The notes beneath the pieces were generated by a model. That model did no database searches and was not told the origin of the DNA. It worked only from the letters and a program-made list of their open reading frames with translations. Shown here one piece after another: positions 10,901-56,779 of a DNA stretch of 64,000 nt; the first letter of the stretch is position 1, and every line of letters starts with the position of its first letter. This DNA comes from a virus: the IMG/VR virus record IMGVR_UViG_3300043548_000722, positions 43,651 to 107,650 of that record. The stretch is one strand, 5' to 3'. The translations under genes were made by a program, and so were the position numbers.

Positions 10901-13900
10901 CCGGCCTTCCCAAAGTAGTCGGAGCTGCCCAGTAGGAAGAGCTCGAGGGGTCCCAGTGATACCCGATGTGCAGATCCGAGTTTGACCCCCACATTGGGTA
11001 GATCATTCGGCCCGCAGCAATGACATCCTCTGAATACACCCCTCCCAGAGCGTGCCCAAAGTCACTGTCGGGAGGATTGCCGTGTACCCAAATCGAACCG
11101 ACGGTTTCGATGGCTGAGCCCAAGCCCGTGATTGCGGGCTCCGTCCCATCCGACTTGCGAATGAAGACGGCCGCAGCCGAGGGCGTGTGTGACCCGCCCG
11201 CAGTGTCTTCACCTTTTGCGACCACCAACGCAGGGTCTGTGCCGCGCTGAATGACTCCAGCAGCAAACGACCTACGAACCCCGGTCGTGTAGTCGGCCCC
11301 ATCAGTGTCCGGAAGTCTGAAGGCCGAGCTGTTGCCGAACCCCGATGCCTCTACAAAGAGGCCAACGGCGGTAGAGTCGACTGTCTCGGAAGAAGCGACG
11401 GCGACATGGATGCCGTCCGCAGGTGAGAACGCGTTTACGTCCACGGCGTAGCCACGGCTGACATCGTCGGCCCCGCCGTCCAAGGCAGAAAACTCCGAGT
11501 CATTGGCCGTGACAAGGATGCCTGCGCCGGTGCCTGCCCACCCCACGCGAATGCCGATGACGGTGTCGTTTGCGCTTGCAGCCGCCGGATCCTGCTCCTG
11601 GAACACGCTCAGGGCTGCGCGGCCTGCCGCCGCGCCTCCGAACATGGGCACTCCGACGCCCATGCGCAGATTCAGAAGCATGAACTGATGTGAGCCGGTG
11701 AAGGTCGGAGACGTACCGTCGAGATTGCGAATCGTAAGCTGGTTCGGACGGGTTTCGTAGGCTTCGTAAAGACCCGCGTACAGACCCGTGAGCACACGCA
11801 CGTAGGTCTTTGCGCCGTGCGAGTTGGCCGACCGGGCTGACGTGGAGTGGTGCGTGATTGGGTACAGAGTTCGCAGATTGTCTGGATTTACGGAGACTGA
11901 TGCCGAGTTCACGACTGACGTGATCACGCCACCTGACGCAAACGACCCGGTCAGGATGTCAAGATTCGAAACCGTGGTCCCATCAAGGAGCGCGGATTTC
12001 GTCACATGCTCGAAATGAGCAAAGGCCAGGTCGCTACCGACGCTGCTGCCATTGACCTTCGTATGATGGAAACCTCCTGCCCTTACGCTCTCGGTGACGC
12101 TGCTAATTGCTGCGCGATAGTCCGTGACCAGGTCGTCAAAGATCTCCCATGACGACACGTTGTCCGCACCGCCGCCAAGCGGCAGCACGGTGCCAATCTG
12201 ATGCAGCGGAGGGACAATCTGCACAGTCCGCCCATCAATCCAGCGCGTGATGCGCCAATCGGCGTAGTTCGTGCCGCTGATGACGAAGTTGATCGCGCGA
12301 CCAACGTCCTCAAGGGTGAATGCGTCGTAGGTGCCGGAGGCATCGTATCCAGAGGCACGGAGGAGGTTCCCCTCCAGAACTTCCGCTGCGTCCACGGATG
12401 TGCGATTGGAGGCGGCCGTCGTTGCGGCGGGCGTTGCGAAAAGAGTGACTGGGCGATCAGTAACTTCTGCAAAGAAGCCGCCACCCTTGTCCTGGCCCTG
12501 TCCCTGGTAGACACCGCCGAAGTTGAGATTGCGGTGCAGGTTTCGTAGGACCCAGCCATCGACCTCTTCTGACGAGTTGATGGCCGGGACCAGCAAGAAG
12601 TCTCGAGGCACGCGACCAAATGCGTTCTGCATGCCGAGGATGATGCGGATACCGCCTGCGGGAACACGCGGGATGTGCGGCTCGAACCACAGGTACAGCG
12701 AGGTTTCGAACAGTCCATTCGAGTGGACAGTGAGCGTCTCTCCCGACTGGGCGTTGAGAAGATGCAGAGACTCATCTGTTTCGTGCCGAACGACGATCTC
12801 TGTCTCCGAAACGACAGTGTCTACAACGTATCTCCCCGCGTTCGAGATTGGGGTTACAACGACCGGACCCGTTAGCTCAACGATGTCCCCTTCACGCACT
12901 CCGTTCGTGACAAACGTCGCGCCGGAGCAAATGATCGTAGCGCCATCGATAATCTCTGTGACGCCCACAGAGCTTTGCTTCAGAGACTCTCCGCCCAAAG
13001 CATTACGGTAGAACGGGTAGTCATCTGTGCTGAGCGGTAGGTTGGCCGACCCGTCTTCGTTGAAGGTACTCGCGCCTCCAACAATCCCGCCAGAGGGCAG
13101 GTAAGCAACGGTGCCGATGCCCACTACCTTGTCAAGAGATAGCAACTCGTTCCACTCGGAGTCGAGGACCGCAAAGTACTGAGAGATCTGCTGAAGCGAG
13201 GCGTCGGCAGGAAGATCAACGAAAATTGCGGTCTCGAGCACTGCATCGAGATCATCGAGGTATCCGGTGGCCAGGTCGATTGAGGTCACCGCCCCCGTGA
13301 GCGCGTCATACTTCAGACGAGGGCTGTCCTCTGGGATCTCCAGCACGACAGGTACGGCCACTTCGCGGACAAGCTGGACCTGGTGGCTGTCGAGGTTCTT
13401 GGCTAGGCTGTGCAGAGCGCGATTGACGCTCTCGCTCGTCCGGTCCTCTCCACGCGCGACGAAGCTAGACCGCGGACGGTTGCCCTGCGTCAGAGCTCGC
13501 GGACTGGAAGATGCAAGGTCCCCCGCAGTCACCCGTGCAGACGGATGCGGGTTTACGTGTAGGCCAACCAGCGGAGCAAGGTCTGTGAAGCCCGCGGCAG
13601 TCGGAAGAACCTCGATAAAGGCATTGGTCCCTTCCGCAGCAACGTAGCCGGTGTTCTTGGCAACAACCTTGAGCACACCTTCGTAGGCATAGGCAGTCAG
13701 CGGGGCCGGAATGGATACCGCAGCGGCTGCGGTGTTGATCCCATCTACGATCTGCGCCAGGGTTAGCGCAGAGACAGAGGAGAACGAAACGACCAGGCTC
13801 GCCAAGGATTCTGTCGCAAAAGTGATCGCAAAGCTGCCCGGGCTACTCGCTGCCAAGATGGCATCGATGTCGTCGAAGCCTCCGGTGGCATTGATGGGCT

Positions 13901-19544: not shown

Positions 19545-21826
19545 TAGGCGGTGTCCGTGAGGTCGATGAACACGTTGGCTTTCGCGCCGTAGATTTTACT
19601 CTCTAGTACCGATCGTGGCGACTGGAGAGTGACGGCGTAATCGTATCCAGATCCGAGGCCAACCGCCGCCGAACGAAGGTTGACTGACATACGATTGTAC
19701 ACTGAACCGAACTTTAGGGTGGGAATCGAGCCAATCGATACGGTCTTGCCGTCCAGAATGTTGTCCACCGTGGCGCGCTTCGCGGACCCGCTGTCTGCCC
19801 ATGGGATGTCAATGCTGGGCTCCTCTTCAAAGTCAATGAAGAGTCTGACGCTCTTGCCAGGCAAAATCACAAGAAGGTATGTGTGCTCTACGGAGAGGTC
19901 AATCGGTGCTGAGATCAGTCTTCCGACTTCGGACTCTGGGTTGAGTACCTCCAGAACATCTTGTGTGTCCTGGCTCACGAATACGAAAGTCTCGGATCGA
20001 TCTTCTGCCGTTACAAACTGGAGCTGAACGAAGGTGTCTGCCGCGCTGGCGCGCACTGCCATCAGCGCGGCACTCGCCATGCGAACTGGATCCACCTGCT
20101 CAAGCTGGTCTACGATCTCCACGATCTTGGCCTGGGCGAATACCGCGATGCCAGTGACATACTCTGTATATTCGTCCGCAGTAAAGGAGATGTGGTAAAA
20201 CCCGACGAGATCACTTGCGTCCGGCTCGATTACAGCCACGTCGTCTACAATTGAGACTGGCGCGGAGCCTTCGTAGGTCCAAGCAGAAAAGTCTCCTGCG
20301 TAGGCGACTTCCTTTACGGGCATGAAAATAAAGTTCTCAATCGCAAAGATGCCGTCGAAGTAGACTGACCCCAGGTCCTCTTGATCGAGGAATCCGATGT
20401 CAAAACGCGCGAGACCCTGTGCGTCGCTGAGGCCACTAAGGTCCGTGCTGGTAAAAGAACCGCCGATGACGAGCTCGGCCGCTGTCGGGGCGATGGAGCA
20501 GAGAACTTGCGTCCCATCAAACACAGTCAAAATAAACGGCGCCGTCTCACTCCAGTCAACCTCTGCCGTCTCGTAGTTCTCTGTGATCAGGCGGTTGTTG
20601 GAGCCGAGCGCATTCGTGTACATGCCGAAGGACGTGGTTCCGTCGTTCAAGAAGCGAAACTTGAGCGCATCCACTCCATTACTGATGTCAAAGCCCATGC
20701 CTATATTGTAGGAGCCGCCATGTTCTTCTTGTTGCGGGCGTCCACGAAAGAACACCAGCCACTTTGAGGTCTGAAGCTGCGGCTCTTCAGATCTCAACCT
20801 GGAGTTGGTGGTCTCATTAGCGGTCAGCAGTAGTAAGTCTGTGTCCGGGATCCAGGAGGCTGACTCTCTCCTCATCCGGGAGACATCCGCCTGACTCGCT
20901 GCAATCAGACAGCCGGATGCCTCTGCTGTCCCTTCCTGAAACGCCTCCACTCCTCCCGCAGAGACCAGGGTCTCACCGTGCTCTTCCAGGAGCATGGAGT
21001 AGAGGTACGCCTCCCCTACGCGCTCTTGATCCAATCCAAAAAAGACGCTGGACCCCGCGCTGGGGTTTTGAGACTCAACCAGGCCAATACGCGCGGTAGG
21101 AATGAACTTTCCAAGCGCACTGATTGGCTCGTCAAACAGCCGAGTCTCCTCTTTTGTGGTCTCGTCGGTGACTGTCACAATCGCCCGAGCCAGGTATCCC
21201 GACGCCTCGAAGAAGATGCGGAACGAGTGCGTGGCCGCTGACCAGTCGAAGTTCACGGTCTGATTGACGGCCCGCACCCCCGAGGAGTCCGCGGGACCCG
21301 TGATTCGGACGTACTTTGTCCCAGCGGAATCACCGCAGAAAACAAAGATCCCGGTGCTGCGGTCCCAGTGGATGTAGCCAAACAACACGCCGTTGTAGTC
21401 CGTGTCGCTCAGGTAGGCAGCTGGTCCGGCTGAGGGGATGACAGGTACTGCGAAACGAAGTTCGCACCCGACAGGCGCGTCCTTTGTCACATCTCCGTGG
21501 AGAAAGAGCACGTTTGATGACTTGACTGCCGAGGCGCTTGCGATGCTTAGCACCGCATCGCCCGAAACATTTTCAAACGTGAGATCTGCACGGTTGTTGT
21601 TTCTTTCAATCGGGAGAGAATCGCTGAAGACGTCAAAGACATACGGCTCGCTGAGCGGAAGCTCTGTCTCGTTCGGCGGATCAAAGACAGCCTTCGCAAA
21701 CGTAACGAAGCCGTAGACCTCCCCGGGGTCCACCTGGTAATCGTCGTCCCGCACGCCAAAGTAGATCGGCAGTGTGGGGGAGAACTCCTCACCTTCGGCG
21801 GGAGTGCGGTTGACGACGTTAGGCAT
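19544..21826 (-). CDS. Lectin-like (LamG/concanavalin-type) tail protein
   Basis: The start at 21826 (MPNVVNRTPAEGEEF, 760 residues) is chosen because it overlaps the upstream stop by only 8 bases; a longer reading from 21994 runs through an Arg-rich stretch read from the J-like gene. After an N-terminal domain (about 1-75), three similar beta-sandwich segments follow (roughly 75-270, 330-520, 540-745). Each has the jelly-roll pattern of a long strand, a D-W/L-S turn, and a strand like ILTVFDGTQVL or LLVILPGKSVRLFIDF, as in LamG/concanavalin-like domains. A glycan- or receptor-binding role at the baseplate is a reasonable inference. Confidence 0.75.
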   Translation of the reverse strand: MPNVVNRTPAEGEEFSPTLPIYFGVRDDDYQVDPGEVYGFVTFAKAVFDPPNETELPLSEPYVFDVFSDSLPIERNNNRADLTFENVSGDAVLSIASASAVKSSNVLFLHGDVTKDAPVGCELRFAVPVIPSAGPAAYLSDTDYNGVLFGYIHWDRSTGIFVFCGDSAGTKYVRITGPADSSGVRAVNQTVNFDWSAATHSFRIFFEASGYLARAIVTVTDETTKEETRLFDEPISALGKFIPTARIGLVESQNPSAGSSVFFGLDQERVGEAYLYSMLLEEHGETLVSAGGVEAFQEGTAEASGCLIAASQADVSRMRRESASWIPDTDLLLLTANETTNSRLRSEEPQLQTSKWLVFFRGRPQQEEHGGSYNIGMGFDISNGVDALKFRFLNDGTTSFGMYTNALGSNNRLITENYETAEVDWSETAPFILTVFDGTQVLCSIAPTAAELVIGGSFTSTDLSGLSDAQGLARFDIGFLDQEDLGSVYFDGIFAIENFIFMPVKEVAYAGDFSAWTYEGSAPVSIVDDVAVIEPDASDLVGFYHISFTADEYTEYVTGIAVFAQAKIVEIVDQLEQVDPVRMASAALMAVRASAADTFVQLQFVTAEDRSETFVFVSQDTQDVLEVLNPESEVGRLISAPIDLSVEHTYLLVILPGKSVRLFIDFEEEPSIDIPWADSGSAKRATVDNILDGKTVSIGSIPTLKFGSVYNRMSVNLRSAAVGLGSGYDYAVTLQSPRSVLESKIYGAKANVFIDLTDTA

Positions 21827-35767: not shown

Positions 35768-35991
35768 ATCATCTCCGGAGTTTGCGGCATCAACGCTGCG
35801 CGCTGTGCCAGTTCCCGCTGCTTACGGATCACCTTACCCTCACGCGCATCCTGAAGGAAGTCCTTTCCGTATGCACCCGCAAGCGTGCCTACGCCCAGTG
35901 CCGTTCCCAGCCCGGCCACCTGTCCCCCGGACAGGGCAATCTTTTCAAGCTCATCAACAAAGAACTGAAACTGCGCTGTAGAGTACCTCAT
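35764..35991 (-). CDS. Small protein with a hydrophobic glycine-rich segment
   Basis: This 75-residue protein has an amphipathic start (FQFFVDELEKIALSG), then a Gly/Ala-rich hydrophobic segment (GQVAGLGTALGVGTLAGAYG) that may enter a membrane, and a basic C-terminal tail. Similar Gly-rich hydrophobic N-termini occur in the 413-, 839- and 1129-residue proteins farther right, so it may be a membrane-active virion peptide. It sits 3 bases after the hub-like gene. Confidence 0.65.
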   Translation of the reverse strand: MRYSTAQFQFFVDELEKIALSGGQVAGLGTALGVGTLAGAYGKDFLQDAREGKVIRKQRELAQRAALMPQTPEMM

Positions 35992-35994
35992 CTT

Positions 35995-38900
35995 TTAACC
36001 CCTCTTTCCGATTCCCGAGACGTGGTTTCTTCCGGTAGCAGAACTGCCGCCAATAGTATCACGATAGTCTAGCACACGCTTGGCGCGCTCATAGCGCGGG
36101 TCTAGCCGATCTCCCTCGGTGCCCTCTAACGTGAAGGGATTGGCGGTTGATGTCATCCGATGGCGAAGTCCGACACCCTTGATGTCTAAGAATTCGAGCT
36201 GACTTCCATACTTTTCGCTTCCAAAGTTAACCGCATTTGAATGAAATCCTCCCTGGTATTTTGCTTCAGGGCCCAATGTAGCGCCAGAGTTCTGCACCCT
36301 GCGAACCACTCTGCCTTGCGAGTCCAGCTGAACTTGTTTATCGCCCAAGACTTGCGGTAGATTCGCAATCGGGCGGCGAGTGACTCCGTCGATGTACAAC
36401 AGGGGGTCTGCTCCCGCCTCAGATCGAGTATCGGTGGCTTCCGAGTACTGCTTTGCTATCCAGTCTACAGCTTGTTCTATAGATCTAACTGCGTATCCAT
36501 CAAGACTCTCGGACTCTGGCACAAGGTCGGTAATCGACATTGACTCAAAAAACGGCTTGTAGATCTTAGATGTAAGGCGAGAAACACCAGACTCATCAAG
36601 AGCAGCGGAGTAGTCCTTAGAGATCCACTGTGGGCGGATTGCCTCTTCTACGGGAAGCTTGCCCTCTAATGATTCCTCATTCACGACCTCTGCTACGAGC
36701 GTGTCTTTAGGAATTGGTATGAGAACTTCGAAGTAGTTGCCAGACGCATCGGCATATGCCGTCTGGGGATACCCCGCGTCAAACAAAAGGCCCAAGAGTT
36801 CTCCTACGATTACCGAAGCAGATTCGGTAGGGATTATGCCCACCTCCTGAACTGCATCTCCGGTTTTAAGGAAGTAAACAACTACAGCAGTCCCGTAGTC
36901 TCCAGTCCACAGTCCGCTATTGATTACTCCTCCAAGAACCGGAACGGGGGAAATTGAGATTCGGGGCTCTGATATGTCCTCGAACGTATCAAACGTGTCT
37001 GACGGAGACACGATCGTCGCATCAGTGGCTACCGGCAGTGAACTTAGAAACTCTCCAATATCGTAGATACCGGCAGTTCCTTCAAACAGCTTCCAAAATG
37101 CTAGATCAGCGCCCTTTAGCTCCGCGGACATGGCCCGGACAATGCTGCTCTTGAGACTCCAAGTCTGAGTTGTTGAGACCTTTCTGCCTCCGGTCTGAAT
37201 CGTCATAGTTGCATCGTTCTGGATTAACTCAAAAAACTGATCTTCAGCTTGAGATCCGGTCCTATGCGTTCGTACGTGGGTGAGCACAACACTCGTGATC
37301 GCTCCTCCTTGAGTTATTGAGTGCGTGACTGAATTGACCATCCCAAGGGTAAACGCCCTATTACTAAGATCTGTAGAGCCAGTCTCGTCAACTGTGATGG
37401 ATGCATCTACGATTACCGCGGGAAACCCCGCTACAATAAAAGGACTGAACGCAAGGCTAGCCGACCCAGTCTTCGCTTCGTATCTCTCAGACAAGAGCCG
37501 AAAGTGTGCCACTTTTCGAGCATAGGTCTCGTACGAAGGCATCAATACATCTTCTGGAGATGACCCGTCTTGATACAAATTCTTATAGAATAGTACGTTA
37601 TCCATAGCATGAAACTTAGGAATAATTCCACTATATTTCTCATGATCGTAGACCAGAATGGAATTTGGAGAGCCACCTTCCGATGACGATTGAATCGAGT
37701 CTTGAAGATTGTCGCCGGATACAAATTGCGGAGCATAAAACACTGACTTAACTGCCGCAGATAAAGTCTGCTCAAGGCCAAGGTCTAACTGAAGCCGCGT
37801 CGTTTCTCTGAGCATGTCTCTTTGAGTAAGGAAGCTTTGTAATTGATCTGGGTAGATCACATTACACGCAGGAGGGGGAACGAACCACACATCCGGCCTA
37901 AAGATGAATGTTTTAAGACTTTCTCGTGGGGAAGATGACACCGGAGTAGAGGGTGTCGCTGGGGCCACTGAATCGCCCTCGGGGGTGACACTGCCAAGGG
38001 AGACCGCACCAGACTGTCTCCAGTTGCGAAGCTCGAAGTGGACCGGGTCAGCTCCTATGTTCCCCAAGATAAAAAGAGGATCCTGCCGCGAAGTTTCTGA
38101 CGTAACTGCTAAAGAGCGAATCTCTGGGGTCCTTGCCGCAATGATCTGAACGATCCGTCCCCAAACTACAAAGTCTTTAAATGTAAGAATGTCCTCTTTA
38201 AAGTCCTCTTGACTGCGATAGATTGATTCAAAATCAGAGGCATCTGGTCCTCGCGCCTCCAGGTCCGCCACCGTAGAAAGGCGGATTCCGCTCTCTGCCA
38301 GGGATGCAATAATTCTTCTAAGACGCAGATACCATGTCTCCCCCGATGCCACGTCTTTAATTGGTTCTCCGGGCCCATTCGTGCGGTACGGCATCGCCAC
38401 GCCAATTCGCGCACTACGGCCGGTCTCATAGATCATTTGAATATCGAGGGCTACCCGATTTACGTGGGCACTGCGCAGCTCATACGAAGTAATTTGCGCC
38501 TCTGTCGGATCTGCTCCCTCCCTGGAGCGCAGAATAGCAACTACTTCGGCTCGCTCCCGTAGTGCGTCAGTAACAACCACCTTGGCGCTGGTGTTGCCCG
38601 AGGGAAGAGTGGCCTTGGCCACCGCAGCGCGTACCTCTTCAAGAAACTTAACTGCGATGTCCCGAAAGTCTGCCCGAAGCTCGTCTATCTGAGTGTCTCC
38701 GGTTGTTCCGACCGTGTCGATAGAATCGTCTGTCTCAACCTCGTATTTTGGAATGTCTCGATTTGGGGCATCCGGAACAACCTCTGATTTTCCGGCTACG
38801 TACGTTGGTGTTAAGTTGGTTACTACGTCGTAAAAGACATAATCAAGGATCACTCGGAGAGTTTCTCGAAACGACATCACATCTCCGGCTGGGGCAATTC

Positions 38901-47334: not shown

Positions 47335-47556
47335 ATGGACGAAATTCTTAAGAAGTCGGCTGCTATGCGTATGTTTTTCAACATCAACACCTTTCGATGG
47401 GAGTCCATGGATCCAGAGATCTCACGGGCCATCCAACAGGTGTACGCAGATAACCCTATTCTTACTCTGGGATCTGTTCCTTTCGCGGTTTTTGCGGAGT
47501 TAATCCGCGTAGTGCTCTGCTGCGATCCGCCCTCCGAACGCCCTCCAGAAGAGTAA
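47335..47556 (+). CDS. Small hypothetical protein with structured leader
   Basis: The ATG at 47335 with AGGAG at 47323-47327 gives 73 residues (MDEILKKSAAMRMFFNINTF); the in-frame upstream part from 47227 is judged to be leader. A mid hydrophobic segment (VPFAVFAELIRVVLCC) may enter a membrane. Its 3' end overlaps the convergent kinase-like gene by 95 bases, which weakens the call, but the ribosome-binding site is good. Confidence 0.55.
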   Translation: MDEILKKSAAMRMFFNINTFRWESMDPEISRAIQQVYADNPILTLGSVPFAVFAELIRVVLCCDPPSERPPEE

Positions 47557-48472
47557 AGTCGCTTGGAGCAACGTTTTGTATTCCGTACAGTGTACGGAAC
47601 ATCTCCGATTGGGTGATTGGAGTAGTCAGTATCGCTTTGCGACGAAACGCGGAATCTTCCATAAGCCTTTGCATAAAGCCACTTTGACGCTGCATTAGGG
47701 TTTCTATGTCCGGGGCTGTACTCCCGACCGGCAATCCTACCCACCTCTGCACAAAGCGCGACCTCGGGCTGCTAGCAGCTAGCGTCTGTGCAGCGCGGTC
47801 GGGGGAAGATGGAATGAAGTCAATAATTTTGGGACCAGAGGCCGTCATAATCGTATTACCAGGATTGCCTACTACATCTCCAAGGGTCTTTTTTGCTCCC
47901 ATCCGGAAATTACTTGCCGGAAGATGCGCCACGGCCCGAGTAAAGTCAGTGCTCCCGGGGGCATTGAGCTGCTCTGGGGTCACATAGCTGGCGAAGTCCT
48001 TTTCGGGTCCCGAGACGAACTCTGTGTGGTAATACGGAGTGCCGCTGTCCGCCCGCCGAAGCTTCGGACTGTAGAGTGTGGCGAACGTAGGGTCTTTGGT
48101 CGCACGCGCTCTTCTGAGCATATTAAATTTTTCGGCGAGTACTCGTTGGTCGTAAAGTGGGCCCTTGGTATCAAAGGTCTTCATAACCGACAAGGGCACA
48201 GGGGAATCTGTGGAACCTACAACAAGGGCTGCGGGCCCTTCGGCCCCGCTTCCGAGTACCTTTATAATAGAGCCCATTCGGGTTTTTTTCAGGGAACCCT
48301 CGGCGTCTAATTTTTCTGCAAGCCGCGTTGCTCCGGAGATATCTCCTGCCTCCACAAGTGCCCGCAGGTCTTTTAGATATCGGCGCGCTGCAATTTTTGT
48401 CTGGCCTGCAGACTCTTCAGCCCACAAGGGATGAGTAAGTAGAATAGCCTCGTATGCGGCAACTTTATTCAT
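47462..48472 (-). CDS. Protein-kinase-like protein
   Basis: This 336-residue protein shows a kinase-like layout between residues about 65 and 220. There is a Gly-rich loop LGSGAEGP (73-80), a strand with Lys VMKTF (about 96-100), a helix with Glu (VLAEKFNMLRRA), a hinge-like YYHTEFVSG, and a catalytic-style LGDVVGNPGNTIMT followed by KIIDF. The spacing of D-x-x-x-N and DF fits kinases or aminoglycoside-type phosphotransferases, although the usual HRD is absent. The other parts are unassigned. It is the last gene of the long minus-strand operon. Confidence 0.55.
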   Translation of the reverse strand: MNKVAAYEAILLTHPLWAEESAGQTKIAARRYLKDLRALVEAGDISGATRLAEKLDAEGSLKKTRMGSIIKVLGSGAEGPAALVVGSTDSPVPLSVMKTFDTKGPLYDQRVLAEKFNMLRRARATKDPTFATLYSPKLRRADSGTPYYHTEFVSGPEKDFASYVTPEQLNAPGSTDFTRAVAHLPASNFRMGAKKTLGDVVGNPGNTIMTASGPKIIDFIPSSPDRAAQTLAASSPRSRFVQRWVGLPVGSTAPDIETLMQRQSGFMQRLMEDSAFRRKAILTTPITQSEMFRTLYGIQNVAPSDFTLLEGVRRADRSRALRGLTPQKPRKEQIPE

Positions 48473-50984
48473 CTTGATCTCCAGTTTGAGGGATTGATGT
48501 TACACCGTCGTTAGTGTCTTGGCTAGGAAGCTCTACAGTCTTATTTTTATTGGCAGCTCGGCGCCTCAAAATCTCTGCGGCGAGAGGGACCCCTGCCGAA
48601 GGTATTGCACCCGCGGCATACGTACCATAGGCAGGTAGCAGAGTTTTGAGGCGCCTCCCACGGACTGCTGGAGCGGCAGCCATCATAGCCCGCGCGGTTG
48701 CGCGTGCCTCCTCAAGCAGCACAGGTGCCCACATTGACGTTGCCCCAGCGATGCCCAAGTTTCTTGCTTGAGCCCATCGTTTTTCAGGATCTTGCTCATT
48801 GGCCATAGTCGCTTTTGCTCCATAGCCAAACGCCCCTAAAGTAAGGCCCGTGCCAACCAGGCGGGCAGGTAGTATGGAACTCTGAAGTATCTTTTTCCCA
48901 ACTCCACCTGCTGCATGTCCAAGTTCGTGGGCAAGGACATCAGGATCTTTTATCCCCTCCATGAAGACTTTGTTGATAGTTGGGTTGTAGTGCGGCCCAC
49001 GTCCCTGCAACTGCGCGGCAATTAGATCTGCTATTTGTGCTCTTTCTGTGGGGGGACGACCCTCTACAATTTTACGAAGAAGATAATTATCAGTCATCAG
49101 TTTCTCAGCATCGGCTTTAGTTGGAGCCCCTTGAGATGCAGGTACAGGAGAGTTTTTAAACATTGTATCGAACTCATTTGGATCTCTGGGGCTATTTCTT
49201 AACTTGTCCACAACAGAACGACCTGCCGCATTCTGAAGTGTCTTACCGGCTACGGTCGCTGCTCCAAGGACTCCAAGGGATGTACCAAGAGCCCTTTTTT
49301 TGGACACGCCCTGTTTGTCTTCCGCGGACTCAGATGATGCTCGCTTCTCCCTATTTTTAGCTGACCCGTCTGCCGGCTCATTCTTCGGCCACAGCTCACG
49401 ACGCGCCCAGTAGTTTGCACTGAGCTTGTCGTTGGCAGTCAGACTCCCGTCTTTGCCGCGGATTCCGGCCGAACGCGTGAGGTAGTTCTTCTTTGCCGCG
49501 TCGGAGTAGTTGTGCTTGTAGCCCTTCTGCCCAAAGTGGATCAGCTTGACCTGGTCCCCTTTCTTGGCAAGAACCATCTTTTTCTTCTCGGGACGGTCGG
49601 AGTCAATCGGCTGGTTGTACCCAGGAAAGGTACGGCCGCGATACTCGATCTCAGCCTGCTTGATCACCTCCTCATCTTCCAGAGGCGCGTCGGCATTCCG
49701 CTGAAGAGCTATGGCTCGACGACGAAGTAGCTCAGCAGACAGTGGTAGTCCGGCTGAAGGTAGCGCAGAAATAGCATATGTTCCGAACGCTGGTGTAAGG
49801 GCGGCCAGTCTGCGTAAACGAGCTCCCTTGGGAGCCGCCAGGACTGCCCGTCCGCTAGCCCGGCCTTCCTCAAGAAGCGTTGGTACGTGCTGTAGTGCGG
49901 CCCCTACCGTTCCAAAATTTCTTGAGTGTTCAAACCTGCGCTCCTGTTCCTCTGGGGTTCGTCCCGCAGCACTGACCATTAGTGCGGCAGACCCAAACCG
50001 CATACCCGTGCCCACTGAAGGCACGAGACCTTTACTAAGTGCGTGCAATATTCTTTTCCCCCACGTACCCTCAGAGTGTCCCATTTCATGGGCCAAGAAG
50101 TCTGGGTTAACCGCACCCCCCGTAAGAATCATCTTAGGAGACTCGAGGTACTTGGGTGTGGTATCTTTGAAGTAGTCAGACAGTACCTGTGCGAGCTCAG
50201 GCAACTCCTCGACCCCGATGTCGAAATTGTCGAGCACGGTCGGGTCTCTTTTTAGAATCTCTAGAATCTCATCTGCGGACGGGTTCGCCATTAAGACGGG
50301 CACGCCTTTGGACTCAATGCTGGCACGTAACGAGTTAAATTCTCTGACCCTAGTTCTGTCGCGAAGCTGCCCCTCTATAATTGGAGTCAGCAGTCCCTTG
50401 TCAACGCCGAATGCGGTGGCTCCTAGTCCGGCTGTGGCCCCAACACCTGTCCCGAGAATTGTGCTCGCGGATACGTTATCCCCTGGATAATGTGACACGG
50501 CCGAGGCTGCTTTAGTTGCAGCTGCGTTTGCAATCCGAGCCTTCATGCCCGCGGACATACCGGGGTGGTCTCTCTTAAGAGCTTTATAGATCTCCTTGAC
50601 CTTTGCTGGCCGATCCTGCTCCAGAAAGGGCGGCATATCAGACGCCGATTTGGTTTGAGACTTTTGGTAATCTCTGAGGTCTTTATACTTTGACTTTACT
50701 TTGTTACCAGTTTCTTTGGCGGAGCTAGCTAAACTGCGAGCCGCGTCAACTCCCGCTCGAACAGCCAATCCTCCCGAAGCCAAGCCTCCGGCATAAAGAG
50801 CCCCTCGAAGGACCGGATTTTTCTTAGCAAAATCACTTCCCATTGGTAGATATTTTGTCATCAGTGCGCCAGAACCCGCGGCTCCCGCGATTCCAGTAAG
50901 GCTTTTAGTGTAATCTTCCTGTTTGTAGGAGGGGCCGACATCAACTTCCGCAGACTTGTAAAAAAGAGAAATCTCTCGGATCAT
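48465..50984 (-). CDS. Duplicated zincin metallopeptidase protein (839 aa)
   Basis: Two related units, about residues 296-430 and 683-815, each begin with a zincin helix (LAHEMGHSEG at 297-306 and LAHELGHAAG at 684-693). Each carries a second Glu-bearing helix (LLEEGRASGRA and LLEEARATARA) and ends with a nearly identical hydrophobic block (ALTPAFGTYAISALPSAGLP and LLPAYGTYAAGAIPSAGVP). HExxH plus downstream Glu is the gluzincin pattern. Between them lies a conserved phage-type domain (KLIHFGQKGYKHNYSDAAKK, LSANYWARRELWP). Hydrophobic Gly/Ala stretches near 31-75 and 570-585 may be membrane-active. It may be a virion-carried peptidase that acts on the host or on the capsid interior. Confidence 0.8.
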   Translation of the reverse strand: MIREISLFYKSAEVDVGPSYKQEDYTKSLTGIAGAAGSGALMTKYLPMGSDFAKKNPVLRGALYAGGLASGGLAVRAGVDAARSLASSAKETGNKVKSKYKDLRDYQKSQTKSASDMPPFLEQDRPAKVKEIYKALKRDHPGMSAGMKARIANAAATKAASAVSHYPGDNVSASTILGTGVGATAGLGATAFGVDKGLLTPIIEGQLRDRTRVREFNSLRASIESKGVPVLMANPSADEILEILKRDPTVLDNFDIGVEELPELAQVLSDYFKDTTPKYLESPKMILTGGAVNPDFLAHEMGHSEGTWGKRILHALSKGLVPSVGTGMRFGSAALMVSAAGRTPEEQERRFEHSRNFGTVGAALQHVPTLLEEGRASGRAVLAAPKGARLRRLAALTPAFGTYAISALPSAGLPLSAELLRRRAIALQRNADAPLEDEEVIKQAEIEYRGRTFPGYNQPIDSDRPEKKKMVLAKKGDQVKLIHFGQKGYKHNYSDAAKKNYLTRSAGIRGKDGSLTANDKLSANYWARRELWPKNEPADGSAKNREKRASSESAEDKQGVSKKRALGTSLGVLGAATVAGKTLQNAAGRSVVDKLRNSPRDPNEFDTMFKNSPVPASQGAPTKADAEKLMTDNYLLRKIVEGRPPTERAQIADLIAAQLQGRGPHYNPTINKVFMEGIKDPDVLAHELGHAAGGVGKKILQSSILPARLVGTGLTLGAFGYGAKATMANEQDPEKRWAQARNLGIAGATSMWAPVLLEEARATARAMMAAAPAVRGRRLKTLLPAYGTYAAGAIPSAGVPLAAEILRRRAANKNKTVELPSQDTNDGVTSIPQTGDQDE

Positions 50985-50987
50985 GGC

Positions 50988-52229
50988 TCATTTCCCCTTA
51001 CTAAGGCTTGTGTTTGCAGCAAGGCCGTGCGAGCTGTATTGCTCGCCTTGACGGGTGGCTTCGCGCTTCTGGCGCGCAGCCTTGGCGAGACGGTCCTTGC
51101 CCTCTTCAGTCTGGCGTAGTCTATCCGCTTTTTGCTTTGGAAGATATACCCCTCTTCCGCCTTCGCCTGGCTTGTCGCCACCTGTCCAGTTCCAGTCCTG
51201 CTTGGTCCACTTCTTCAAGGAGTTGTTAGACGCAGAGGGCTTGGCGCCGGAGTAACCCCCGCCTTTGTCCTTGTAGATTTTGGTCGCGAGTTGCATGGCG
51301 CGCGCAGAGTGCTTGCCGCCCATCTTGGCGCGCGCCTCGGCTTTGGCTTGCTCCCATTTCTGCGGGTCAGTCTTGGTAGCGGTAGCTGAGGCTGTCTTAC
51401 CTGTAAATGGAGAGTCTATCGGGCTTGGGAACCTCTTATTTGCTATATCCCTGGCGCAGTCACGGGTAAAATCGCATACTCGACCGTCTACCATTGACGA
51501 GCCAGGAGCAAGTGGTGGGTGTCCCATTTTTTTAAGTGAATCATTTACGAGTGGCTCTAGTTCTCCTTTTCTCCACATCCAACGGTCATCGAAGAGGAAG
51601 AGTGTCGGGGCTGCATGGCGAATTTCACTCTCCCTGCCACCTGTGGCCTCCCTGATGGCCTGTTGTACTTCTTCTGGAGACAGGTCGTGCTCTATGGCTT
51701 TAAGACCCATTTCGTAGCGTGTGTAGTCATCCATGTGTTTTTGAAGTCGTTGTTGTACAAACTGCGCCTTAACCTCTTGGGGGATAGCACTCGCAGACTG
51801 GATTGTACTAGGATTTAAATTGGGCATCTGATTTGGCATCTGATTCGGCAGGCCACGCTTAAGTGTCCGCAGGCCGAGTGCTCCAAGTCCGAGTGCTCCA
51901 AGTGCTCCAGCAGACCCCAGGAGAATGTTTCGTCTCCTGCGCTCGGCCGCGTCCCGTTCAGACTGCTCATTCTTTTGGGGATCTACCTTGGTGGCAGTTG
52001 CGGAAGCCTGCTTTTTAAGGAGCGAAACTTCGGCTTTGGACTCTCCATAGCTTCCAGGATACGCCGTGCCGAGCGCCTTCCCGATCCCATCATATGCAGA
52101 GTAGACCTTGTACTCGGCCCAGGAAGGGATCTCCAGACCAAGATCGATCTTCTCCTTGAGATGTTTCGCCTGCGCGGCGATTCTCTCAAGGGTCTTGCTC
52201 AGCATGTGTGAGTCGTCGTACTCGCTCAT
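50988..52229 (-). CDS. DUF5872-type protein with transmembrane segment
   Basis: This 413-residue protein ends in a DUF5872-like domain (residues about 287-405): DPQKWEQAKAEARAKMGGKH, SARAMQLATKIYKDKGGGY, then WTKQDWNWTGGDKP and GVYLPKQKADRL. Residues about 101-121 are a Gly/Leu-rich membrane segment. The peptide ASATATKxDPQK occurs twice (75-86 and 280-291), although the DNA of the two copies differs at many third positions. The function of DUF5872 is unknown; it is seen in phages and large viruses. It lies between the metallopeptidase and the Cys-rich gene, overlapping the latter by ATGA. Confidence 0.75.
   Translation of the reverse strand: MSEYDDSHMLSKTLERIAAQAKHLKEKIDLGLEIPSWAEYKVYSAYDGIGKALGTAYPGSYGESKAEVSLLKKQASATATKVDPQKNEQSERDAAERRRRNILLGSAGALGALGLGALGLRTLKRGLPNQMPNQMPNLNPSTIQSASAIPQEVKAQFVQQRLQKHMDDYTRYEMGLKAIEHDLSPEEVQQAIREATGGRESEIRHAAPTLFLFDDRWMWRKGELEPLVNDSLKKMGHPPLAPGSSMVDGRVCDFTRDCARDIANKRFPSPIDSPFTGKTASATATKTDPQKWEQAKAEARAKMGGKHSARAMQLATKIYKDKGGGYSGAKPSASNNSLKKWTKQDWNWTGGDKPGEGGRGVYLPKQKADRLRQTEEGKDRLAKAARQKREATRQGEQYSSHGLAANTSLSKGK
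51357..51392 (-). repeat. Peptide repeat copy 2 (ASATATKTDPQK)
   Basis: This codes the second copy of a 12-residue peptide in the 413-residue protein, directly before its DUF5872-like domain. It matches copy 1 at 11 of 12 residues, but the DNA differs at many synonymous positions. Confidence 0.6.
51972..52007 (-). repeat. Peptide repeat copy 1 (ASATATKVDPQK)
   Basis: This codes the first copy of the peptide, just before the basic segment and transmembrane helix. Conservation of the peptide without the DNA suggests either old duplication with selection or a functional site. Confidence 0.6.
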
Positions 52230-52738
52230 TTGCGACCTTCCCAGTCGAGGGAGACCTCATCCTTGGTGATGGGGCCGCCGGAAGCCCAAGTATAGCAAGA
52301 TCGCGCCGAATGGCACTTGAAGTCGTGCATGTGGCAGTAGCCGAGATGGCCATCCTCTTGCACCATGCCAGGCATGCAGTCCTGCATTCGCGGAGAGATG
52401 TCGAACGCAACGCAGTTGCCGCACTTCGACTTCTTTGCAACTGCGGCAGTTGTGTTCCAGTGTTCGGCCAGGTGTTTCCAGTACCCCTCGTCGGACAGAT
52501 TGAGAGGCCCGTACTTGATGTGCTCTGCCTTGATCGCGCGGTTCCGGTTCTTGGTATTGACTTCCAAGCTGCGGGTTGCAAGCGGGCACGCCGCTGCCGT
52601 CTTACCGCCAGAAAGGGGATATCCGCAATTGGCACACTTCTCTGCACCCGCATGGTTCATGTGCCCGCACTTAGGGCATTTGATCTGAGCGGCCGAGAGC
52701 TTGACCATCTCGAGGAAGAAGCCAGTGAGGGGTCTCAT
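52226..52738 (-). CDS. Double zinc-cluster protein
   Basis: The 170-residue protein has an N-terminal zinc ribbon (CPKCGHMNHAGAEKCANCGY, residues about 21-40) and a C-terminal Cys/His cluster: KCGNCVAFD, DCMPGM, then GYCHMHDFKCHSARSCYTW. The second cluster, with about seven Cys and several His, resembles small phage metal-binding modules (C-x-x-C-x-x-F...G-x-C...C...C). It may bind zinc or an iron-sulfur cluster. The ATG overlaps the upstream stop (ATGA). The role is unknown. Confidence 0.7.
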   Translation of the reverse strand: MRPLTGFFLEMVKLSAAQIKCPKCGHMNHAGAEKCANCGYPLSGGKTAAACPLATRSLEVNTKNRNRAIKAEHIKYGPLNLSDEGYWKHLAEHWNTTAAVAKKSKCGNCVAFDISPRMQDCMPGMVQEDGHLGYCHMHDFKCHSARSCYTWASGGPITKDEVSLDWEGRK

Positions 52739-55700
52739 GCGGGATCCGTGAACTTGGTGCGATTGGTCTTTCGGCTGACGGCACGTAGGTTGCCGTGGCC
52801 GTTTCCTCCGCCCTTTGACAGCGGTGTCTTGTGATCGGCCTCACGCGGATCACCTTTCTTTAGCCCGAGCTTTCGGCGAGCCTGGTTGCGCAAACTGCGG
52901 TTCTCAACCTGTTCTGGCTTGGCGTGGTACTCAGCGTACTCTTTTTTGTAGTCCCTCTTTCGATCGCCGTAGGAGCTTATTTTAGTTTGTTCCGCGAATC
53001 TCCCAAGTATCGCATTGTGGCTTTTCGGGTCTCCAATAACCCCAACCTTCTTGTTGGTATTGGGGTTAAGGAAGTCCCTGGGCACCGTCAGGTCCCAGTG
53101 TTTTTCTCCATTCGGAGAAAATCCATTTGCGGCATAGGAGGCTGAAACCAGGTTACCGCAGATAAATTTATCCGCATCTTCTGGATTTTGCTTACGGCTA
53201 ATTAGGTTCTTCGCCATTTTCTCTGGGATCAGCAGGGAAGCGCCCTGTCCAGCCAAGAAGGCAAGACTGTCGTAGTCTCTGCCAACTCGACTCTCGGCAA
53301 AATTAGCCGCTCCCTCTCTAACTTTCTTTGAAGCTTTTGGGCGAACTACAATTGCTGATTGGATTCCATCAAGTGCTTCCTCTAAGTTTCTTTTTTGAAC
53401 TCCATCCTCGATACGTGCCTCAACTACTCGGTCCTTACCGACATAAATAGCAGAATGCGCGTGAGAACCCTGGAGTGCAGTCGAAATCCGTGTAAACACC
53501 GCACTGGGGGCGCTAAGAAGCGCAGGCTGGTTACTATGCTGCTTCGGGGTCATCAGGAGAATGTCTCCTTCTTTTAATTTAGATCTAATACGGGACACAC
53601 TGTCTGCCACCTCAGCAACCTTCAACCGCTCTCCCGGAGGACGCATTGAAGGGCCGAGGACTGTCTTTACGACGTGGCGATTTCCGACGTCTCCGACAAC
53701 AGCATAGCCACGACCCCGTTTAAGGGGGATGTGGTATGTCTGTCCTTTGCGGAGCTTCATGTTCCGCAGCTTTGCGCGGAGTGTGTTGACCTCGGGCTCT
53801 GCTCCAGGAGCACGCTCAGCGATGCGGTCTTCAACATGACCAGCTTCTTTCTTGGTCTCTATAAGACTCGCCCGCTGAAAGACCTCTCGCATCTGCCGCG
53901 CCAACTCAGTTTTCTCATCTGCGCGATCTTGGATCCACTCCTCGGTAGATTTACCAGGATCGAGATTTAGTAGCGACGAGATATTTCCTTGGGGAATTGT
54001 GGAATAGTACCTTTGAACGACTACCTTTCGTTCTTCAGGAGGAAGATGATGATGGCTCTGGTAACGCACCCCTCTGCCGATAACCTGGTCAATCTTTGAG
54101 TTGTTCCAGTGCGGCTCTAGAACTTGGACGAGCTTTGTACCCTTGAGGTCTAGTCCCTCGGTTCCGGAACTCGAGACCAGCAAAACTGGAGTTTTACCAG
54201 AGTTATAGTTTTCGACCAGCTGGGCTTTTTGCTTTGCAGTCAGGGCTCCCGTAAGGGTCTCAAATTTGATACCAGTTCTCTGGAGAGACTTTTCATAGGG
54301 ACGAAGTCCGGCCTCTACATAGTTGGAGTAGACGACCCCTCTGAAATTTGGGTCTGTCTTAGACATTGCACGAAGGCGGCTCACCGCCTCTTGGATCTTC
54401 GGAGTACTGAGGCGCTCCTCAATGTCCGTCATTTCTTTGACATATGGCCTCGGAGATAGCGACGCCTGTCTCCCTCCGGCAACAAATGCATTCAGGTCCT
54501 TTGCCTCCTGTTTAGAGGGAGGCAGGCCTGCCTTAATCTTCATTCTGACGTGAAGCGGAGCAGCGCCCATCACGGTTTCATAGACGGCGTGCTGAGTCTC
54601 CGACATTGGAACACGAATCTTCTCTTCCACCTGCACCGGGAAGTCTGATGCCGATGCCTCGTCGTGCAGATCAATGCGACCTGTGAGGGCATCTATAAGG
54701 GCCTTACGATTTTTTAAAGACCTTTTAATCCCCGGCTGTACGCCAAGTAGTCCCTGAAGCAGTCCCGGAGATACTTCCGTCTCTTGAATAAATTTGGCAT
54801 CGAAGCCAGAAGGATCTGCAGGAAGCACTGCCTTACCTGCTGCAATATTTGCCAAAGGAGCAATATCCGAGGGCTGGTTGTACAGGGCAGTACCTGTGAG
54901 TAGCAACCTCTTTTGCGCCTTCGCGGCATCGGCACGAAGCAGTGACGCAGCGAGAGTGCCTGAATTCCTGAGCCGATGCGCCTCATCGATTACCAGAAAC
55001 CTAGAGGTGTCAATCCCCTTTCCCTCCTTTGCGTCCCTGGTGGCCTTTTCGTAGGAACGAATGCGAGCCGTCACCTCCCCACGAACATGCTTCTTTAGTT
55101 CCTTCTCATAGTTTGGAGTTAACGATGCTGGAGTTACGACTTCAATTGGCAAGCCACTATTGACCGCCGCTGCAATTGAGGTCAGCGTTTTTCCTGCGCC
55201 TACGCGATGGGCAACAATGACTCCATCTGAATTTTCGATCTTCCGCAGCACTCTCTCCTGATGAGGCTTTAGAGCAGAGATGACCTCAGCTGCCTCCTTT
55301 TTCATCGCGTCGCTGGTGTAGACAACGCCAATGTCCTTGTAGAAAGAGTCTTTGGGTAGCGTCTTTTTTAGTTGCCGAAGTTTGCGCTTACCAAAGCGAT
55401 CTACCGCCTGCTGGTAACTGGCGTCGATCTTGTCGTACGCATAGCGAGGGACGGCAACAACAGTGGCTGGACGGCCCTTCACAGGATCAAGATCCTTCCA
55501 GTAGGCGCCCGGCACGTCCTTGTATTCATTAAACGAGGAGAGGTCCCCGATCTCCTCAAGCGGAACCATGTAGTCGATGTCGCTGGTCTTCTTGGGGATT
55601 GAGAGTCTTCCGCTCCCTACGATGGTCCATGTTCCATCGTGCGGCTTGCCATCGATCACAGGGTTGGGAAGGTTGTCCTGAAATCTCGCAGCAGCGGTCT

Positions 55701-56124
55701 TGCTCATCTCCCGGAACTGCTGGATGTGCTTACAATCCTGCGCCTCTCCAGGCTGCGCAACAGACTTCTTGTACCTCCAGTCATTACAGGTACAGCCAAG
55801 TCTCTCCGATCCGCGCAGCTTCGTGATCTGATACGACTTGCCGCCGTCTCCGGGAATGTCAGCGATCTTCTTCCCGGTCTTGAGACGGTTCATGGAGTCG
55901 GCGTACTGAAGTAGCTTGGGGTCCGTCATTGGATCCGCGCCAAGCTGCTTTACGAACGACTTTCTCGCGGTGTTGTCCGTGAAACGGTCCCAGTCCTTTT
56001 TCTCTGAGGACTGGAACTGCTCTACACGTTCTTGTGCCTTCTTCTTCTCGCGAGACTGAACTGCCGCAGTCGTTCCGGCTGCTCCCAGTCCTACAGCGGC
56101 AAGCGGGAGAAGCAACTTCGGCAT
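52735..56124 (-). CDS. SWIM-NTase-SNF2 helicase-NlpC/P60-HNH fusion protein (1129 aa)
   Basis: Domains in order: hydrophobic N-terminus (residues 1-22); SWIM-type zinc finger (CTCNDW at 111-116, CKH at 131-133); a nucleotidyltransferase-like motif (GSGRLSIPKKTSDIDYMV, G170/S171, D182, D184); an SNF2-type helicase core with Walker A AHRVGAGKT (305-313), DEAH (380-383), LTGTALYNQ (409-417), SGTEGLDLKGT (653-663) and VIGRGVRYQ (681-689); a permuted NlpC/P60 papain-like domain (GDILLM at 853, HAHSAIYVG at 888-896, FICGNLVSASY with Cys 989); and a C-terminal HNH nuclease (DHKTPLSKGG at 1097). Helicase, peptidase and nuclease in one polypeptide is very unusual. It may act after injection to remodel host DNA-protein complexes. 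Confidence 0.85.
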   Translation of the reverse strand: MPKLLLPLAAVGLGAAGTTAAVQSREKKKAQERVEQFQSSEKKDWDRFTDNTARKSFVKQLGADPMTDPKLLQYADSMNRLKTGKKIADIPGDGGKSYQITKLRGSERLGCTCNDWRYKKSVAQPGEAQDCKHIQQFREMSKTAAARFQDNLPNPVIDGKPHDGTWTIVGSGRLSIPKKTSDIDYMVPLEEIGDLSSFNEYKDVPGAYWKDLDPVKGRPATVVAVPRYAYDKIDASYQQAVDRFGKRKLRQLKKTLPKDSFYKDIGVVYTSDAMKKEAAEVISALKPHQERVLRKIENSDGVIVAHRVGAGKTLTSIAAAVNSGLPIEVVTPASLTPNYEKELKKHVRGEVTARIRSYEKATRDAKEGKGIDTSRFLVIDEAHRLRNSGTLAASLLRADAAKAQKRLLLTGTALYNQPSDIAPLANIAAGKAVLPADPSGFDAKFIQETEVSPGLLQGLLGVQPGIKRSLKNRKALIDALTGRIDLHDEASASDFPVQVEEKIRVPMSETQHAVYETVMGAAPLHVRMKIKAGLPPSKQEAKDLNAFVAGGRQASLSPRPYVKEMTDIEERLSTPKIQEAVSRLRAMSKTDPNFRGVVYSNYVEAGLRPYEKSLQRTGIKFETLTGALTAKQKAQLVENYNSGKTPVLLVSSSGTEGLDLKGTKLVQVLEPHWNNSKIDQVIGRGVRYQSHHHLPPEERKVVVQRYYSTIPQGNISSLLNLDPGKSTEEWIQDRADEKTELARQMREVFQRASLIETKKEAGHVEDRIAERAPGAEPEVNTLRAKLRNMKLRKGQTYHIPLKRGRGYAVVGDVGNRHVVKTVLGPSMRPPGERLKVAEVADSVSRIRSKLKEGDILLMTPKQHSNQPALLSAPSAVFTRISTALQGSHAHSAIYVGKDRVVEARIEDGVQKRNLEEALDGIQSAIVVRPKASKKVREGAANFAESRVGRDYDSLAFLAGQGASLLIPEKMAKNLISRKQNPEDADKFICGNLVSASYAANGFSPNGEKHWDLTVPRDFLNPNTNKKVGVIGDPKSHNAILGRFAEQTKISSYGDRKRDYKKEYAEYHAKPEQVENRSLRNQARRKLGLKKGDPREADHKTPLSKGGGNGHGNLRAVSRKTNRTKFTDPA

Positions 56125-56134
56125 CGGCGGATTC

Positions 56135-56779
56135 CTACGCGGTGATGAACGCTCGGAAACGAGACTCGAGAGATGACCCGGAGAGAATGTCCTTTAGGAT
56201 GTTCTGAAGGGGATAGATGGTCAGCCCCTTGTTTCTCCGTGCAGTCTCGGCATCGTAAGACCGGCCCATCATAACCGTCCGAGGATCAGTTGCGCTATAC
56301 TTCGCGTAGATGTCGGCGTTGCTGCCCAACATGCGCCACCACCACGCAAGTCTCTCCGCTGCCTGATCGATGGATGTGCGGTAGAAGATCGAGTCCCCGA
56401 TGTCTGTCAGCCGATGCGCGACCTGACACCTCGGGCAGACAATGATGCCTGTGTCCTGGGCAAGATCTCCCGAGATCAGATTGTTGCACCCAGTCTGAGT
56501 AGGTGCCTTCGAGAAGGCCATCTCCGCAGGGCTGATCTTCGGTGCGTCCTGGTTGCGACGGCAGATGAAGAGCATCTCATCTCCGCCTCCATGTAGGCGC
56601 TTCCCCGATTCCCAGAAGGAGAGGGAATACGCAACGGGCTTGTGGAGAGAACGCTCCGAACGGAACCAGATCTGGATCTTGTATTTCGCCTTCTTGGCCG
56701 CCTCCTCGGCTGCCTTGATGTTCTCGGCTTCAATCTTGGAGGCGAGCTCTACGCTCAGGGTCTGCATACTCATGGTCAT
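56135..56779 (-). CDS. Zinc-ribbon hypothetical protein
   Basis: This 214-residue protein has a helical Lys/Ala-rich start, a beta part (YKIQIWFRSERS, VAYSLSFWESGKRL, EMLFICRRNQ) and a single CPRC knuckle (VCPRCQVAHRL); FICRR and GCNNL add more Cys. It is followed by a helical C-terminal region (AERLAWWWRMLGSNADIY). It may be a nucleic-acid or protein binding factor. No family recognised. It overlaps the upstream gene by ATGA. Confidence 0.65.
   Translation of the reverse strand: MTMSMQTLSVELASKIEAENIKAAEEAAKKAKYKIQIWFRSERSLHKPVAYSLSFWESGKRLHGGGDEMLFICRRNQDAPKISPAEMAFSKAPTQTGCNNLISGDLAQDTGIIVCPRCQVAHRLTDIGDSIFYRTSIDQAAERLAWWWRMLGSNADIYAKYSATDPRTVMMGRSYDAETARRNKGLTIYPLQNILKDILSGSSLESRFRAFITA

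Follow-up and report, generated by a model that had tools for sequence, protein, structure and literature searches.

Within the window, a 64,000-nt stretch that covers positions 43651-107650 of the 107,650-bp IMG/VR virus record IMGVR_UViG_3300043548_000722, the minus-strand open reading frame (ORF) at 52735..56124 encodes a protein of 1129 amino acids in which about six unrelated modules, mostly enzyme-like, are joined in one chain. By its architecture, its mosaicism and its genomic context this is a phage polyvalent protein, and we consider it probable that it is packed in the head and ejected, with activities that are predicted for each module. Short K-x-A-[S/A] motifs, hereafter the tags, lie at four of the five joints between the modules; they are strongly enriched in the head-region proteins of this phage and hardly in its tail and replication proteins. 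Within the consulted parts of the open-licence literature with which we compared it, this tag is new.

The original prediction placed SWIM, nucleotidyltransferase (NTase), SNF2 helicase, NlpC/P60 and HNH domains in a single protein. A single ORF of 1129 codons with every listed motif is indeed present, on the minus strand, where it is read from 56124 to 52735; the plus-strand reading of the same interval is full of stops. The ORF starts with an ATG preceded by an AGGA, 10 nt behind the preceding gene, in an open frame of 1152 aa without internal stops, and residues 1-22 of the protein form a hydrophobic stretch. The SNF2 identity of the core (residues 285-750, 53875..55272) is certain from its sequence. 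Both RecA-like domains are there, with Walker A, DEAH and intact C-terminal SF2 motifs V-VI, and the full motif set that had been announced was found (GAGKT at 309-313, DEAH at 380, LTGT at 409, VIGRGVRY from 681); the protein matches Pfam SNF2-rel_dom (4.9e-17) and Helicase_C (3.3e-14) as well as a PHROG DNA helicase profile (2e-35). The N-terminal helical domain with its SWIM-like zinc finger (residues 24-140, 55705..56055) is conserved in four phages, this one included, and the four ligands C111-x-C113...C131-x-H133 are invariant in all of them. The identity of this part is 68-82% in two of the other phages and about 30% in the fourth, where it is a stand-alone gene of 194 aa. The finger is assigned from its motif, as no profile matched the segment; the only matches of the N-terminal domain in a PDB profile search, to protein A helices, were discarded as an artefact of helical composition. 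At the other end, residues 1056-1129 (52738..52959) form an HNH-like nuclease module with DYKKEY (1058), D1097-H1098...NRTK (1121) and a conserved DH...N...N pattern. The last 70 residues match phrog_4590 (4e-14), with weak matches to endonuclease VII and to several HNH PHROGs, but the Pfam HNH score (13.9 bits) lies below the cut-off of 21.4. Both the HNH and the SWIM assignments appear well motivated.

The three remaining modules differ in how firmly they can be named. The permuted papain-like domain (residues 843-1035, 53020..53598) contains GDILLM (853), H890 (HSAIYVG), E902 and C989 (CGNLV), with the histidine before the cysteine and both conserved in three phages. The permuted motif set proposed earlier stands, but not its family: NlpC/P60 scores 17.3 bits against a cut-off of 23, and we prefer Peptidase_C92 (YaeF/YiiX), which reaches 28.9 bits (1.4e-6, cut-off 27) on the isolated segment and 25.7, below the cut-off, in the whole protein. 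A structure model built from three sequences (mean predicted local distance difference test score, pLDDT, 55; predicted template modelling score, pTM, 0.62) has as its top Foldseek matches in the PDB the Bacillus cereus cysteine peptidase 3kw0 and YiiX 2if6 (E 3e-3 to 7e-3, prob 0.98-1.0), followed by PLAAT/HRASLS; among the viral models of BFVD, the second match is annotated C92 (E 8e-6). The segment at residues 150-270 (55315..55677) does hold the predicted NTase motif, G170-S171...D182-I-D184, but it has no match in Pfam, PHROG or NCBIfam, and the structure model of the region is of low confidence. The pattern itself was set aside as evidence: it occurs in three proteins of this phage where 0.4 would be expected, and two of the three belong to the tail block. 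The nucleotidyltransferase identity is unproven. Finally, the original prediction overlooked the interdomain tags and a small alpha-alpha-beta-beta-beta domain, possibly RelE/ParE- or PBECR-like, at residues 762-833 (53626..53841), which is present in all four orthologues. In the model of a 423-aa relative (pLDDT 63, pTM 0.34), the N-terminal domain and the equivalent of 762-833 (pLDDT about 70-87) are confident, but the NTase and HNH regions are not. The best PDB match of that model, ParE2 (prob 0.60, E 0.33), is not significant.

We then asked whether the same architecture is found in relatives of this phage (G000), namely G001 (L003), G002 (L014) and G003 (L017), whose loci have flanking genes in common with it, and G004 (L103). 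In the closest relative, G002, the same locus encodes the 423-aa protein, with SWIM, NTase-like segment, 762-833 domain and HNH but neither SNF2 nor papain; it is 82% identical over the N-terminal part (residues 20-281) and 91-93% over HNH. Against G002, the 1129-aa protein has its SNF2 insertion at KKE|SGH and its papain insertion behind PPGERLK. The G002 record, which may be incomplete, yielded no SNF2 at all. The G001 protein consists of SWIM, a ParB-like domain replacing the NTase-like segment, SNF2, the 762-833 domain and HNH; its ParB match is weak (NCBIfam SbnI 2e-4, phrog_17560 3e-19). The G003 protein is composed of SNF2, the 762-833 domain, a glycine-zipper stretch with a further domain, and HNH, and the contig ends just upstream. 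In G004, three separate genes encode SWIM (next to the same upstream gene type as in this phage, of 214 aa), a C92 papain of about 205 aa and an SNF2 protein of about 490 aa. Segments that belong to separate proteins in close relatives could speak against one multidomain protein, and this is in part what we see, with three modules separate in G004 and two absent in G002; we read it as a sign of optional modules and not of an artefactual ORF. As architectures vary in this way among relatives, the modules prove optional and exchangeable, the C-terminal HNH being the constant part of the locus and the internal modules the variable one. An assembly chimera or a misread gene fusion is very improbable. 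The contig is metagenomic and the G+C content at third codon positions does differ between modules (0.66-0.68 in SWIM, NTase and HNH, 0.51 in SNF2, 0.46 in papain); however, values of SNF2 and papain unlike those of the other modules are expected of acquired modules, the frame is single and open, the flanking synteny is conserved, and the joints match independent contigs (SWIM-NTase in G002, SNF2 to the 762-833 domain in G001 and G003).

About 38 strong relatives, most of them stand-alone proteins, were found in a wider scan with an SNF2 alignment. In L141 a papain like the one described here is independently fused to SNF2, and in L140 SNF2 is fused to NUDIX and LigD-like domains; the C-terminal parts of these two proteins (L140:3903-8582, 1560 aa; L141:4797-9179, 1461 aa) resemble DNA ligase (KIDGAH / KLDGAH). 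In most of the 40 loci inspected, the HNH module is a small gene of its own; many phage contigs (L027, L038 and others) have phrog_4590 HNH as a very small separate gene, some with a short N-terminal lead ending in EKEA/EKEK. Searching 50,697 phage records by direct tblastn with the papain, NTase and SWIM parts gave no matches, nor did the papain segment alone against IMG/VR or a whole-protein scan of prokaryote genomes; the stand-alone papain relative was found through a C92 search of the relatives' records and a two-sequence alignment. Mixed alignments that included stand-alone HNH and papain rows were misaligned and were dropped.

The tag emerged from an unbiased count of gapped tripeptides, with expectations obtained by shuffling, over a gene list made by greedy choice of long ORFs, a few of which are not real genes. 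K.AS was the top enriched pattern in minus-strand proteins (45 against 8.3 expected), and plus-strand proteins gave no such signal. For K[x]A[SA], the observed and expected counts were 43 and 6.2 in the head and RNA polymerase (RNAP) block, 9 and 3.1 in the 90-101 kb cassette that includes the 1129-aa gene, 7 and 3.1 in the tail block, and 3 and 2.3 on the plus strand. When a weight matrix was trained on all other minus-strand proteins, the 1129-aa protein being excluded, its four best sites in that protein (142, 276, 1048 and 835, in this order) coincided with four of the five domain joints. Linker boundaries follow the domain limits but were set by eye, so that a binomial value for the joints is only a guide. 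The best site, QFREMSKTAAARFQ (K142, 55678..55719), separates SWIM from the NTase-like segment; the second, TSDAMKKEAAEVIS (K276, 55276..55317), lies between the latter and SNF2, at the position of the N-terminal tag of many stand-alone SNF2 relatives; the third, RFAEQTKISSYGDR (K1048, 52960..53001), is junction 5, and the fourth, PPGERLKVAEVADS (K835, 53599..53640), junction 4. The remaining joint, between SNF2 and the 762-833 domain (ETKKEAGHV, 53836..53862), has a KxA outside the top matrix sites and is the module breakpoint with respect to G002. All five lie on the minus strand. Among SNF2 relatives, 15 of 34 distinct sequences carry a wider form of the tag in the 25 residues that precede the domain, commonly at a distance of 5 residues, against 0.26 expected. 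The same matrix places sites at joints in L003, L140, L141 and L017, with some non-joint matches too.

What is the biological significance of these tags? The heads of T4 and SPN3US contain proteins whose propeptides are removed by the prohead protease, often at several sites (PMC5694885), and the N-terminal 30 residues of P1 DarB, a packaged SNF2-type polyvalent protein, suffice for capsid targeting (PMC9024508). We infer that the tags may be capsid-targeting and/or prohead-protease sites that could release the modules, although processing at the tags is a tentative proposal, to which we give somewhat less than an even chance. In its fullest form, slightly more tentative still, the 1129-aa protein would be a virion polyprotein in which each module brings its own head-targeting or protease tag and is freed by the prohead protease inside the capsid; fusion or splitting of the genes would then be nearly indifferent, and the tag would be a general packing and cutting code, legible in the sequence, in a large and uncharacterised phage group. 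It is also possible, with a probability of about one in three, that the tag is only a packaging or core-assembly signal, left uncut, and that the full-length protein is ejected. The N-terminal targeting sequences of P1 DarB and of the T4 internal proteins, and the tag near the N-terminus of stand-alone relatives, agree with this. On the other hand, some non-fused head-region proteins contain 5-9 copies throughout, like protease-digested scaffolds; the densest are encoded on the minus strand at G000:C1:8753-9733, 12181-13404, 20052-21554 and 35829-36923. Two proteins identified by mass spectrometry (MS) in virions of Salmonella phage Arash, gp220 and gp223, have 7 and 6 tag copies, and the Arash major capsid protein (MCP) has none. 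In this phage, the ORF at G000:7172-8410 was considered as MCP and rejected, as its sequence is unlike one and no annotated relative was found.

An indirect indication of packaging comes from Arash, whose gp217 is a stand-alone homologue of the SNF2 core (41% identity). Liquid chromatography-tandem MS of Arash virions recovered gp217 with 100% coverage, 38 unique peptides and 1148 spectra, to be compared with 3516 spectra for RNAP beta, 1210 for beta' and 1333 for MCP, while two other helicases gave 2 unique peptides each (PMC10585845). The presence of gp217 at RNAP-like abundance supports packaging, and the packaging and ejection of the 1129-aa protein appear likely from this analysis. Of the earlier proposal of an injected or takeover factor that might remodel, cut and proteolyse host targets, the injected factor is the best reading, in view of the late virion genes around the ORF, the neighbour with two HEXXH repeats and the abundant virion SNF2 homologue. 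Several observations weigh against it or its extensions. The MS data come from a stand-alone homologue that itself lacks a K.A[SA] site, and not from this phage, and the Arash authors allow for carry-over of abundant proteins into virions (PMC10585845). The joint between SNF2 and the 762-833 domain holds only the weak form KKEAG, and tags also occur inside non-fusion proteins, with single strong matches in RNAP and tail proteins. Finally, the closest relative, G002, has RNAP and no SNF2; the motor is hence not obligatory, which weighs against an obligatory link between SNF2 and RNAP. A recombination or repair enzyme expressed late and not packaged would account for SNF2 together with HNH, readable as DNA processing, and a part in recombination has been suggested for the SNF2 enzymes of jumbo phages (PMC7824862). 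We hold this to be improbable: papain and NTase-like modules are out of place in such an enzyme, its SNF2 homologue is a virion protein, and head-type tags are present.

A related question is whether the motor serves mainly the virion RNAP, recycling or remodelling the injected polymerase like RapA or NPH-I, with the other modules as passengers. This overlaps with packaging of a polyvalent protein, and several observations speak for it. The Arash gp217 gene directly follows the RNAP beta' gene; in L130, L142, L145, L149 and L136 no more than about 5 kb separates RNAP from the SNF2 gene, and RNAP is present in all seven phages examined; the SNF2 profile matches vaccinia NPH-I over its C domain. 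A RapA-like role has moreover been proposed for a jumbo-phage Swi2/Snf2 helicase that accompanies RNAP genes (PMC7824862). Besides the case of G002, however, the SNF2 of G000, G001 and G003 is part of a fusion at a different locus that is not close to RNAP. We rate the accessory-factor explanation at about one chance in three, and give the same odds to a functional connection of SNF2 with the virion RNAP taken by itself. We favour a packaged and ejected polyvalent protein, for which the following scenario can be proposed. During head assembly the tags would act as capsid-targeting and/or prohead-protease sites, and the protein would enter the prohead as one chain. It would be delivered with the DNA, either whole or cut at the joints. 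The SNF2 part would then act as a translocase on the dsDNA entering the cell, most likely together with the virion RNAP packed alongside it, which it would clear, recycle or remodel in the manner of RapA or vaccinia NPH-I; alternatively, it might be an anti-restriction motor like P1 DarB. SWIM may help DNA binding and HNH may nick or cut DNA. Host proteins or RNA would be the targets of the C92 papain, the 762-833 domain and the NTase-like module.

The genomic context is that of late virion genes. The minus strand encodes a terminase and tail-fibre and baseplate-wedge proteins, together with a match to a maturation protease and a weak one to a portal protein; the plus strand encodes DNA polymerase, a second helicase and a ligase. 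The single-chain RNAP (2116 aa; G000:C1:24866-31216, minus strand, outside the window) has beta and beta' domains with NADFDGD intact at about residue 1400; the open frames for such a chain measure 2108-2135 aa in G000-G004, and Arash has two genes. Within 8 kb of the ORF, in the same polyvalent-type cassette, an 839-aa protein (48465..50984, minus strand) carries two metallopeptidase-like HEXXH repeats about 390 residues apart (HEMGH at 299, HELGH at 686) and tags at 112 and 158. Between the two, a 413-aa protein (50988..52229, minus strand) has two strong matrix tags. The 214-aa upstream neighbour (56135..56779, minus strand) is a conserved synteny marker: G001, G002 and, as judged by eye, G004 have a similar gene immediately upstream. 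The 336-aa protein encoded at 47462-48472 of the window has a glycine-rich loop and an IIDF stretch that make it look kinase-like by eye; it has no profile match. Downstream of the locus in the closest relative, the genes L014:6561-7838 and L014:7838-9976 encode a DnaJ domain and a YHGT segment resembling ADP-ribosyltransferase, and the gene beside SNF2 in L103 encodes a 493-aa protein with Peptidase_C39 and a YHGT segment.

In this phage family one can trace, at a single locus, how the domains of a polyvalent protein are gained, lost and split. The tag may mark phage proteins packed in the head and, if it is a packaging or protease signal, the likely injected proteins of many uncultured phages could be listed from sequence. 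Arash, which is cultured, has the same tag and a published virion proteome, makes a direct test possible. Our results also support the idea that phages pack an SNF2 motor with RNA polymerase, as poxviruses do.

How does this protein compare with known systems? The T4 internal proteins also have a short targeting propeptide removed by a prohead protease, gp21, but with another motif, and the tags here stand also between modules, if they are the same thing at all. Vaccinia NPH-I, which is packaged in the virion, and bacterial RapA are likewise SNF2 ATPases working with RNA polymerase; they are distant in sequence and lack fused modules of this kind. Arash gp217 belongs to the same SNF2 clade, is found in virions and is encoded next to RNAP beta', but it stands alone (472 aa), without the other modules and without the tag. 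The Dar antirestriction system of P1 (DarB/DdrB) offers a packaged SNF2-type ATPase in a very large protein with an N-terminal capsid-targeting sequence. Membership was nevertheless rejected, since no adenine methylase domain was detected here by Pfam, PHROG domain matches or NCBIfam, and there is no sign of the same targeting signal. The original prediction also saw a resemblance to polymorphic toxins. Domain types are in common (HNH, papain, possibly RelE/ParE-like), but no secretion domain or immunity gene was recognised, the C-terminal module is constant while the internal ones vary, and Iyer et al., in the sections consulted, place polyvalent proteins apart from polymorphic toxins; we regard a toxin-like effector as very unlikely. 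In those same sections (Iyer et al. 2017, PMC5512222), no mention is made of papain, NlpC or cysteine peptidases, C92 included, or of a shared joint tag; SWIM appears only as a partner of other SNF2 enzymes, HNH occurs only in another context, and NTase is reported only in conjugative elements. The features in common with the polyvalent proteins described there are these: unrelated domains in one chain, late virion gene neighbours, mosaic architectures, SNF2 as a hub domain and metallopeptidase-like repeats in the same cassette (PMC5512222). Indeed, of the polyvalent hub domains (MPTase, SNF2, ParB, ART), SNF2 is found in the 1129-aa protein itself, a weak ParB-like match in its G001 counterpart and a pair of HEXXH repeats in its neighbour.

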